Source of the DNA: an uncultured Spirochaetaceae bacterium
Lineage (GTDB): Bacteria > Spirochaetota > Spirochaetia > Sphaerochaetales > Sphaerochaetaceae
Reading direction: 5' to 3'
DNA length: 42,247 nucleotides
NCBI GenBank assembly: GCA_944392975.1
Contig: CALXYN010000017.1
Span: forward strand, 1 to 42,247
The notes under the pieces were generated by a model. It made no database searches. It was not told where the DNA came from and was given only the letters and a program-made list of their open reading frames with translations. Shown here in pieces: positions 21,135 to 24,148 of the stretch; position 1 is the stretch's first letter, and each line of letters opens with the position of its first letter. The position numbers were made by a program, and so were the translations under genes.

Positions 21135-21572
21135 GCACTGAATAACTAAATTGATACATGTTATTTATCATATAATAATTTATATAAATTATATAATAAA
21201 ACTGTAATATCTATATCAGAAATAGCTTGGTAGACAATATTCCTATCCTCAGTACTATTGATTAAAAAGGTTGTCCAGATTCCTTTGACAAAAATACTTT
21301 GCTTGTATATCAGTAAATCGGATCTATCCAAAAACAAAACACAATTTTAATGAAATTAAATTTGATAAGATTTAAAGTTGGGATTTGAAGCATATGATTA
21401 CAATATGGTAAATATTCATAAACAGCTAAAAGAATTATAGAATATTATTATAATCATATAATAAACCCCATTAAATAATATTGTTATTATATCAAATACA
21501 TAGGCTTATTTTGGTTTATATAGTAGAGCGAAATCATATTCATATTTTCCTCGACAAAACGAATTTCAATTC
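21135..21572. other. AT-rich non-coding region upstream of the Ig-like lipoprotein
   Basis: About 440 nt with many TA-rich runs (for example around 21170-21200 and 21440-21490). I see no reading frame of usable length, no RNA gene and no clear terminator for the preceding gene. Composition differs sharply from the flanking genes; intrinsic curvature or an old insertion scar are possible. Confidence 0.6.
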
Positions 21573-21603
21573 TTGACAAATATCTACCGGGGGGGGGTAG
21601 CAT
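21573..21603 (+). promoter_or_regulatory. Promoter with a nine-G tract in the spacer (candidate phase-variable)
   Basis: A perfect -35 TTGACA (21573-21578) is followed by a spacer containing nine consecutive G (21589-21597), then TAGCAT (21598-21603) as the nearest -10, giving a 19-bp spacing. The tract is bounded by CTACC and GGTAG-like ends. With seven G the spacing would be the optimal 17 bp. Slipped-strand changes in G number would therefore modulate expression of the lipoprotein gene 35 nt downstream. Confidence 0.75.
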
Positions 21604-21637
21604 ATATCCAGAAAATCTAGTGGAGGAGAAGAATACG

Positions 21638-24148
21638 ATGAAAAAGAAATCTATTCTTTTGACTTGCATCGTCGCAATCATGGCACTTGCTATGTTTGTA
21701 GGATGCGATAATGCACCGGTATTCCCCGATATGCCAAAATCGGTAAAGGGTGGATACCTTACCCAGACAGGAGTAATCCTTACTGGGCAGGAAGTGACAG
21801 CTGATAAGTTCACTCTTACTGTTGAATATGACAACGGAGATGAGCCAACTGTAATGCCTGCAACAAACATCCAGCTTGATGGAACAGGTAATGTTTTCGC
21901 AGTTGCAGGGCTTGATTCCGACAACAACCCTGTTGATACAGAGAAGCTTCTTGTTGCATTTACAGATGCAAACAGAATTGAGGCAACAGGATTCAAGGAG
22001 TCATATACAGTAGCAGAAGCAAAGGCAATCAAGCCATCTGACATCCAGGTAACAGCTTATTATGGAACAGATGGATCTGTTGCTCTTACATCTTCTGAGT
22101 TTACTGTTACATATGATACAACAGTACTCAAAGATGAACTTGTTTCTCCTTCTCATCCTACTGAGCAGGTTGAAATTACAGTTCATCCAACAGTTGGTGT
22201 AGCTAAAGATAACAGAGCTCTTGATGAGACATATGTAATCACAGTGAAGTATGCAGAAGCTGTAGAGCCAGAATATGCTATTGCCTCTGTTGATAGTGTA
22301 AAATTTGTAGATACAGCTATTCTTAAGGGTCTTGCATATGATGAAATTCCTGTACCATCTTTTGATGATGTAGAATTCAAGGTCACATATGATAATGGTG
22401 AAAAGACAGAAAATTATTGGGTAAAGCTTACAGAAGAATCAGGAGTCACACTCAGCTATGTAGATTCTGGAACAAAGCTTGAACTCAATAAAAAGAATCT
22501 CGTCAAAGATAATCGCTCATATGAAGTAAAGGCCGTATACAATGACGAATCGGTTAAGTTTGATGATACTGCAATTTCTGTAACTCAGGTTTCTGAGGTC
22601 AGGGTAATTCCAGTAGAGGGATACAAAGCACCTGTTTTCAAAGCTGGTGATGACTTTGTAGCTCCTGTTGCCGAAGATTTTGACGTAGTTCTTGCTTATG
22701 ATAACGGTTCTTATGAAAGACTTGATGCTGCAGCAAAAGAGAATTTTGTATTCTCTTACGTAAAAGCAGATTCAGACGCTTATAAATCAGTTGATGAGTT
22801 TGTTGAAAAAGATGTTCTTGTTGTGAAGGCAGAATACATGGGTGTTGCAGGTTACTCTGCACAGACTATTACTGTTCTCCCAGAAGATGCTCCAGTACCA
22901 CAGGCTATTAAAGCTGTAAAACTTGTACCGGCATATCAGGCTCCTGCAAAACAGTCGTATTATGATGTAAATACTATTAATCAGACTCTTACAATTGCTG
23001 CAATTGATTCTATTACAGTATCTTATGATAAGGGTGATGACCAGGTGATTACAGATGGTTTTACGTCAGGTAATCTGTCTGTTGAGTATTCTCTTACATC
23101 AGGATCTGTAACAAAGCTTGATAAGGATAGCCTTGTAAATACTGATACTATCTACATTCATGTAGTTTGGTATTATCTGGATTCAGAAGGTGAAGTTCAG
23201 ACTCTCGAGTACTATGAACCTGTAGAGCAGCTCAATACTGCATATGCAAGTGCGCTTAATGTTATAGTTGACTATGATAAAGTTGCAGTAGGAACAGAGA
23301 CTCCGATGTATGGAACTACATACAAATATACAGTTAACGCTGTTAATGTGTATGGTGTTGTTTCTACACTTAATGCAAATGAATATACAATTGATGGAAC
23401 TCTTCCTGAGACTGTTACAAAGGCGGTTAGTGTACCTGTAAATGCATTCATCAATACTGCTGATGGCGAAAAGCTCATGACAGCAAATATTAGTCTTGTA
23501 GAACCTATGGCCTATATTTCAGCTGAAAAGCTTACGCTTGCTGTTGGTGAAGGAGAAGCAATTACTCCTTATCTTGTCGGAAGCAAGACAGCAAATCATT
23601 TCAATGATGACACAGCAAAGAAGTATGTTGTGACAGGCTATACTTCACATGGAGATGCAACTGTTACAATAAGATCGAAGGATGCTTTTGCCCTCCCGGT
23701 CTCTGAAATTAAAGAAGGTGAAAATTCTGTCTACGCTTATGTATCTTATGTTGATGAGAATGGTAGAACTCAGAATAATGTTCGGGTTGAATACAAGTAT
23801 ACAGGCGTTGCTTATACAGAGACTGATTCAATAGTTCTTGTTTCAACAGAAGATGGTTGTGATGAGATTGCTGAAGGTAAAATGTATTATGGAAAAGCAT
23901 ATGACCTTTCCAAGATTACATGGGATACAGAAGTAATCAAAGAGCATGGTGACGATGCAAAACTCACTGTAAAAGGATACTGCAAGGGTGATTATAAAGC
24001 AGGTGTAACAACACTTAAGCCAATGAGTGGTTCTTATACAGATAACTATGCTGGAACAATCAATTTTGTAATCGGATATACAAACAATCAGGGTGCCGAG
24101 GCTGAAAAGGTATTCCCAGTTACATTGACTGAGGCACCTAGAAACTGA
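21638..24148 (+). CDS. Large Ig-like-repeat lipoprotein, probably surface-exposed
   Basis: An 836-residue lipoprotein: MKKK n-region, hydrophobic core and lipobox MFVGC, so Cys25 is lipidated. The mature part is a chain of roughly six to eight beta-rich modules, several marked by a recurring 'VxYDNG' turn (VEYDNGDEP, VTYDNGEKT, LAYDNGSYE, VSYDKGDDQ) between hydrophobic strands, resembling bacterial Ig-like repeats. No enzyme domain or C-terminal anchor is seen. The ATG at 21638 sits 9 nt after GGAGGAG; an upstream GTG at 21620 would place extra charged residues before the signal peptide and is rejected. The poly-G promoter suggests variable expression, as for surface antigens and adhesins. 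Function as adhesin is inference. Confidence 0.85.
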   Translation: MKKKSILLTCIVAIMALAMFVGCDNAPVFPDMPKSVKGGYLTQTGVILTGQEVTADKFTLTVEYDNGDEPTVMPATNIQLDGTGNVFAVAGLDSDNNPVDTEKLLVAFTDANRIEATGFKESYTVAEAKAIKPSDIQVTAYYGTDGSVALTSSEFTVTYDTTVLKDELVSPSHPTEQVEITVHPTVGVAKDNRALDETYVITVKYAEAVEPEYAIASVDSVKFVDTAILKGLAYDEIPVPSFDDVEFKVTYDNGEKTENYWVKLTEESGVTLSYVDSGTKLELNKKNLVKDNRSYEVKAVYNDESVKFDDTAISVTQVSEVRVIPVEGYKAPVFKAGDDFVAPVAEDFDVVLAYDNGSYERLDAAAKENFVFSYVKADSDAYKSVDEFVEKDVLVVKAEYMGVAGYSAQTITVLPEDAPVPQAIKAVKLVPAYQAPAKQSYYDVNTINQTLTIAAIDSITVSYDKGDDQVITDGFTSGNLSVEYSLTSGSVTKLDKDSLVNTDTIYIHVVWYYLDSEGEVQTLEYYEPVEQLNTAYASALNVIVDYDKVAVGTETPMYGTTYKYTVNAVNVYGVVSTLNANEYTIDGTLPETVTKAVSVPVNAFINTADGEKLMTANISLVEPMAYISAEKLTLAVGEGEAITPYLVGSKTANHFNDDTAKKYVVTGYTSHGDATVTIRSKDAFALPVSEIKEGENSVYAYVSYVDENGRTQNNVRVEYKYTGVAYTETDSIVLVSTEDGCDEIAEGKMYYGKAYDLSKITWDTEVIKEHGDDAKLTVKGYCKGDYKAGVTTLKPMSGSYTDNYAGTINFVIGYTNNQGAEAEKVFPVTLTEAPRN

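Follow-up and report, generated by a model that had tools for sequence, protein, structure and literature searches.

Promoter elements and lipoprotein gene in the window

The window, which is the whole stretch of DNA analyzed (42,247 nucleotides from an uncultured Spirochaetaceae bacterium), carries a lipoprotein gene preceded by a candidate sigma-70-type promoter with nine consecutive G residues in its spacer. The features of the locus are as follows.

21573..21578, plus strand: -35 hexamer TTGACA, read in the sequence
21579-21588: spacer prefix AATATCTACC, between TTGACA and the G tract
21584..21600, strand not assigned: inverted repeat CTACC-G7-GGTAG from a dyad scan, which includes TAC-N9-GTA, the spacing of a CsoR-type operator
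21585..21588, plus strand: conserved WACY element TACC, abutting the tract on its 5' side
21589..21597, plus strand: poly-G tract of nine G, read in the sequence, adjoining the -10 element
21598..21603, plus strand: -10 hexamer TAGCAT (family consensus, TAgncT)
21610, plus strand: predicted transcription start, an A 7 nt 3' of the -10 element and preceded by a pyrimidine, placed by family alignment
21622..21628, plus strand: Shine-Dalgarno-like GGAGGAG, read in the sequence and conserved in the family
21638..24148, plus strand: lipoprotein gene, an ORF of 836 amino acids, beta-rich and tentatively Ig-like in its predicted structure

The TTGACA, the nine G residues in the spacer, the TAGCAT, and the 19-bp spacing described in the initial annotation were all borne out when the sequence was reread, and the tract is, as also stated there, the sole long G run in the window, which holds no other run of G or C of at least 7 nt. 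The ATG lies at 21638, with 34 bp between it and the end of TAGCAT. A G9 or C9 run alone is mildly unusual, being present in 26 of 600 Markov-simulated windows; the whole configuration of TTGACA, spacer, G8 or longer, and TANNNT occurred in 0 of 600. Other sigma-70-like sites upstream were found at the chance rate (6 versus 5.0 expected) by a consensus scan that permits spacers of 16 to 18 bp only, so that the TTGACA/TAGCAT site, with its 19 bp, is absent from the output. RNA elements were not found in an Rfam search of positions 21135 to 21700, and a plasmid search returned nothing matching the window promoter region. A phage-carried origin is unsupported, the promoter pattern having no match in viral contigs. 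A terminator-like match on the minus strand was the tract's own TACC/GGTA dyad. The predicted 5' leader and the start of the coding region (21610-21720) fold better than shuffled sequences (z, -2.5), most of the stems falling within coding sequence.

The ORF at 21638-24148 encodes 836 residues, and its N terminus, MKKKSILLTCIVAIMALAMFVGC, is a type II signal peptide with a lipobox, in agreement with the lipoprotein of this length first proposed. The further description of the protein as Ig-like is plausible but weak. An AlphaFold model (mean pLDDT, 73; pTM, 0.35) contains beta-sandwich-like segments in a chain and has S-layer and other Ig-like tandem proteins as its top PDB matches, but the protein had zero matches in Pfam and NCBIfam. 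Loci matching the gene were found on eight more contigs of the same genome.

Recurrence of the promoter in the genome, the genus, and beyond

A genome-wide pattern search of the 2.07-Mb source genome found 14 tracts of G8 or longer, 9 of which sit between TTGAC(A/T) and TANNNT, shortly upstream of a lipoprotein-type start. These nine promoters are on contigs C3, C17 (the window), C18, C22, C31, C35, C76, C80, and C86; the -35 element on C3 reads TTGACT, and the gene on C18 is truncated by the contig end. Several of the genome's promoters drive paralogues of the window protein, and those on C3 and C35 drive another type of lipoprotein (CTQYVFVPFPG). A tenth promoter, on C89, has a G7 tract followed by C and TATTGT. 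The product of its gene (C89:3-245) shares 96% identity with the window protein across the first 81 residues, yet the promoters differ, which suggests that paralogues have recombined close to their 5' ends. Two other long tracts are associated with coding regions. In another lipoprotein gene, the sequence coding for the signal peptide contains a G9 tract (C16:16206-16214). The lipobox frame there is closed with nine G but open with eight or eleven, and the tract is a probable translational switch judging from these reading frames. A G11 tract at C46:2073-2083 is close to the start of an ORF with a signal peptide, and its ON length depends on the start codon used.

In the genome collection, loci matching the promoter come from uncultured Spirochaetales/Spirochaetaceae metagenome-assembled genomes (MAGs) and from Candidatus Ornithospirochaeta. 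In a genus set of 48 genomes of Candidatus Ornithospirochaeta relatives, TTGACA-N3-8-TACY-G4+ was found at 97 places in 25 genomes, compared with 4 for the reversed pattern, and TTGACA-N6-12-G8 was found in 34 genomes, compared with 0 for the reversed pattern. In total, 182 distinct promoters were gathered with search patterns that required TTGACA and mostly WAC, so that the shared TTGACA is by construction of the searches. Their consensus is TTGACA-N6-(T/A)AC-(C/T)-Gn-TAgncT, with n mostly 8 to 10. TA directly follows the tract in 168 of the 182, and the final T of the -10 hexamer is kept in 166 of these 168. The alignment also revealed an A-rich block upstream of the -35 element and a C immediately before TTGACA; among 149 aligned promoters, the position 7 nt past the -10 element is A in 67%, and the preceding position is a pyrimidine in 79%. 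The conservation of WAC was measured in a search that did not require it, in which 83 of 96 promoters had WAC 0 to 3 nt from the tract, and in 75 the (T/A)AC had spacer position 7 as its first base. A lipobox could be looked for in 156 downstream ORFs and was present in 151. Some gathered copies have interrupted tracts (GGGGGTGGG and GGGGGAGGG) or a damaged -10 element, as expected of locked or decayed promoters. The promoter is thus a lipoprotein promoter module, with about ten copies in the source genome and more than a hundred, by a wide margin, across the genus.

A scan of the genome collection, with follow-up, found TTGACA-N6-TACC-G8-11-TATAAT in Lachnospiraceae, other Clostridia, Bacilli, and a Treponemataceae MAG from horse feces, often ahead of genes whose products are secreted or located in the membrane. 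There are 13 places in one Bacilli genome and 7 in one Clostridia genome, with 0 for the reversed pattern in both. In Clostridia and Bacilli MAGs, TTGACA-N6-TACC-G8-10-TATAAT lies upstream of tandem paralogous secreted proteins; on one contig (G064:C46), five such promoters, almost identical in sequence and with tracts of G8 or G9, lie within about 11 kb.

Tract length, spacer length, and proposed switching

The relatives showed that the nine-G tract is not invariant, a comparison that the initial annotation had called for. Tract lengths are the assembly consensus of single MAGs and may include homopolymer assembly errors. Where two promoters match fully over the spacer prefix and over the 40 nt that follow the tract (16 pairs), the length differs in 11; where up to 2 mismatches are allowed (39 pairs), it differs in 28. 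One promoter carries G8, G9, and G10 across three species, G8 and G11 occur on one promoter inside one genome, and paralogous promoters have tracts of G8 to G12. At the syntenic sufD-phospholipase-lipoprotein site, which was compared in three species, the tract is G9 in the present genome, G10 in G057, and G9 in G009; most other species have no lipoprotein gene after sufD and the phospholipase-C-like gene. As in porA- and tp0126-type systems, the homopolymer lies between the -35 and -10 elements, the gene is of the envelope type as judged by its lipobox, and the tract varies faster than its flanks, here between paralogues or species.

The initial annotation also proposed that the loss of two G residues, which gives a 17-bp spacer, would be the ON state and that 19 bp would be poor. 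The family does not support this. Of the 168 promoters, 87 have a spacer of 19 bp (the mode), 39 have one of 18 bp, and 14 have one of 20 bp; 17 bp occurs in 8, via shorter prefixes. In the main class, which has a 10-nt prefix (n = 113), G7 followed by TA was found in 0 promoters, G8 in 20, and G9 in 71. Since these are the common alleles and most interrupted tracts keep about nine positions, 18 to 19 bp is more likely than 17 bp to be the strongest spacing. We infer that 18 to 19 bp is the working range, possibly since a G tract takes an A-like form in which each base pair adds less length. Tracts of G10 or longer are found in 17 of 35 promoters where the tract directly follows WAC compared with 22 of 113 in the WACY class (P = 0.002), which suggests selection on a total length of about 19 bp rather than free drift. 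These distributions thus suggest that tract length is pulled toward about nine G and, at the same time, toward a total spacer of about 19 bp. The promoters with a 7-nt prefix, 9 of 10 of which have spacers of 14 to 16 bp, fit no simple spacing rule; this class keeps G9 at a 16-bp spacer, and therefore the direction of a switch there would be reversed.

The recurrence of the module and the length differences on identical flanks support slipped-strand phase variation. We estimate a probability of roughly three in four that the window promoter is a phase-variable sigma-70-type promoter controlled by slipped-strand mispairing of its G tract. The tract, which occupies the second half of the spacer, may gain or lose a single G by mispairing within a strain, and the spacer would shift among about 18, 19, and 20 bp, rarely 21 to 22 bp, with promoter strength following. 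The phase switch of the initial annotation is accordingly retained as to the architecture, which recurs before lipoprotein genes with different tract lengths on identical flanks; the switching itself is a prediction from that pattern. As the same module drives a large and divergent set of lipoprotein genes, the mix of weak and strong lipoprotein promoters could differ from cell to cell; the products are predicted to be surface exposed. The conserved WAC before the tract argues against this reading, since a tract that served for spacing alone would not call for it; the excess of G10 or longer directly after WAC and the short spacers of the 7-nt-prefix class also count against it.

Poly-G switches in promoters have been described for a few loci of Neisseria meningitidis and Treponema pallidum. 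In this uncultured gut spirochete genus, well over 100 lipoprotein genes share one module whose motif and spacing are conserved. Should the switch prove real, gut commensals would commonly show combinatorial phase variation of their envelope proteins, and metagenome reads would reveal it directly. In addition, the natural length alleles on near-identical promoters provide a ready series for measuring the effect of a poly-G spacer on promoter strength.

Alternative explanations and known systems

The main rival, or co-mechanism, is a CsoR/RcnR-type operator, in which a CsoR-family repressor would bind the G tract between TAC and GTA. The published CsoR operator consensus is TAC-N9-GTA around G tracts, with TACT-G6-N-AGTA also described (PMC3902906). 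The promoters would then be co-regulated through A-form-prone G tracts, and tract length would matter only because the operator needs nine positions. TACC-G9-TA contains an exact TAC-N9-GTA at the published spacing (PMC3902906), the dyad is present in the window and in the TACY-G9 copies, G9 is the modal allele, and WAC is conserved in the 83 of 96 promoters mentioned above. However, many copies have AAC instead of TAC, many tracts have 8, 10, 11, or 12 G so that the dyad spacing is not fixed (n = 8 to 12), and WAC is present in just 5 of 13 promoters in the Bacilli genome G070. Known CsoR/RcnR operators share the G tract bounded by TAC and GTA, with the same spacing at n = 9, but their targets are metal-efflux genes and their G tracts are fixed and either shorter or split, whereas the tracts here are variable and precede lipoprotein genes.

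A candidate regulator for such an operator is encoded at C23:17957-18172, between metG, which it directly follows, and a convergent Mur-ligase-like gene; the other CsoR-family protein of the genome is encoded at C26:10767-11006. The candidate is a CsoR-family protein without the core cysteines, and equivalents were found in 25 other genomes, all in one clade of the genus. The association of this second CsoR gene with the promoters is striking at first, the divergent paralogue being present in 26 of 34 promoter-bearing genomes and in 0 of 14 others. However, the 26 genomes are exactly those with a MetG at least 76% identical to that of this genome, and the association therefore collapses to one clade, that is, to a single phylogenetic event. 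Eight genomes outside this MetG set have promoters without the paralogue (in one, G049, metG is cut by the contig end), and two Firmicutes genomes, G067 and G073, carry the promoter but have zero PF02583 proteins. We regard the operator as an unlikely sole explanation and retain it as a rival and possible second layer.

Such a layer could act together with slippage, which would change the spacing and also shift the promoter in or out of repressor recognition. A slippage switch that is also a CsoR-type operator core, read by the sensor-less CsoR paralogue, would jointly account for WAC, the G9 mode, the shift to G10 directly after WAC, and the length polymorphism, but the bound regulator is only putative and the phylogenetic confounding is the same. 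We place this putative double role next in order after the operator and likewise consider it improbable. If it is true, one G gained or lost would move each lipoprotein promoter in or out of the regulon of a shared repressor.

The least probable of the alternatives is that the tract is a fixed structural element whose A-like helix lets 19 bp behave like 17 bp, with length differences that are neutral or assembly noise: the strong 19-bp mode in both Spirochaetia and Firmicutes and the nine positions mostly kept by interrupted tracts agree with it, but it has no need for a pure, mutable G run and is poorly compatible with lengths of 8 to 12 on identical or near-identical flanks and with the downstream genes, whose envelope type is characteristic of contingency loci.

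In the literature collection searched, no earlier report was found on this genus or on promoters with poly-G tracts in gut commensals. The phase-variable promoter proposed here was compared with those of other bacteria. The porA promoter (van der Ende 1995, as cited in PMC5084427) likewise has poly-G between the -35 and -10 elements, but it belongs to another phylum, an unrelated gene, and a single locus rather than a repertoire; we know of no WACY element in porA. Transcription of N. meningitidis porA is graded by the length of this tract, as described in PMC7864442. The T. pallidum OmpW homologue tp0126 also has poly-G between -35 and -10, with a reported optimum of 17 bp (PMC7864442). It is likewise a spirochete envelope-protein gene, but its 17-bp optimum differs from the 19-bp mode found here, and it is a single gene, in contrast to the multigene lipoprotein set with the conserved WACY. 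The tract of T. pallidum tprL ranges from 7 to 11 G in vivo and is mostly 9 (PMC7864442). Together with tprE/G/J, tprL resembles the present set in being a paralogous envelope-protein family with poly-G near the promoter, mostly nine G in tprL. However, the tprL tract overlaps the -10 region, whereas the tract here fills the spacer, and the tpr genes encode putative porins rather than lipoproteins. By this comparison, the window promoter likely works like those of porA and tp0126, and what is new would be a module shared genus-wide with a conserved WAC.
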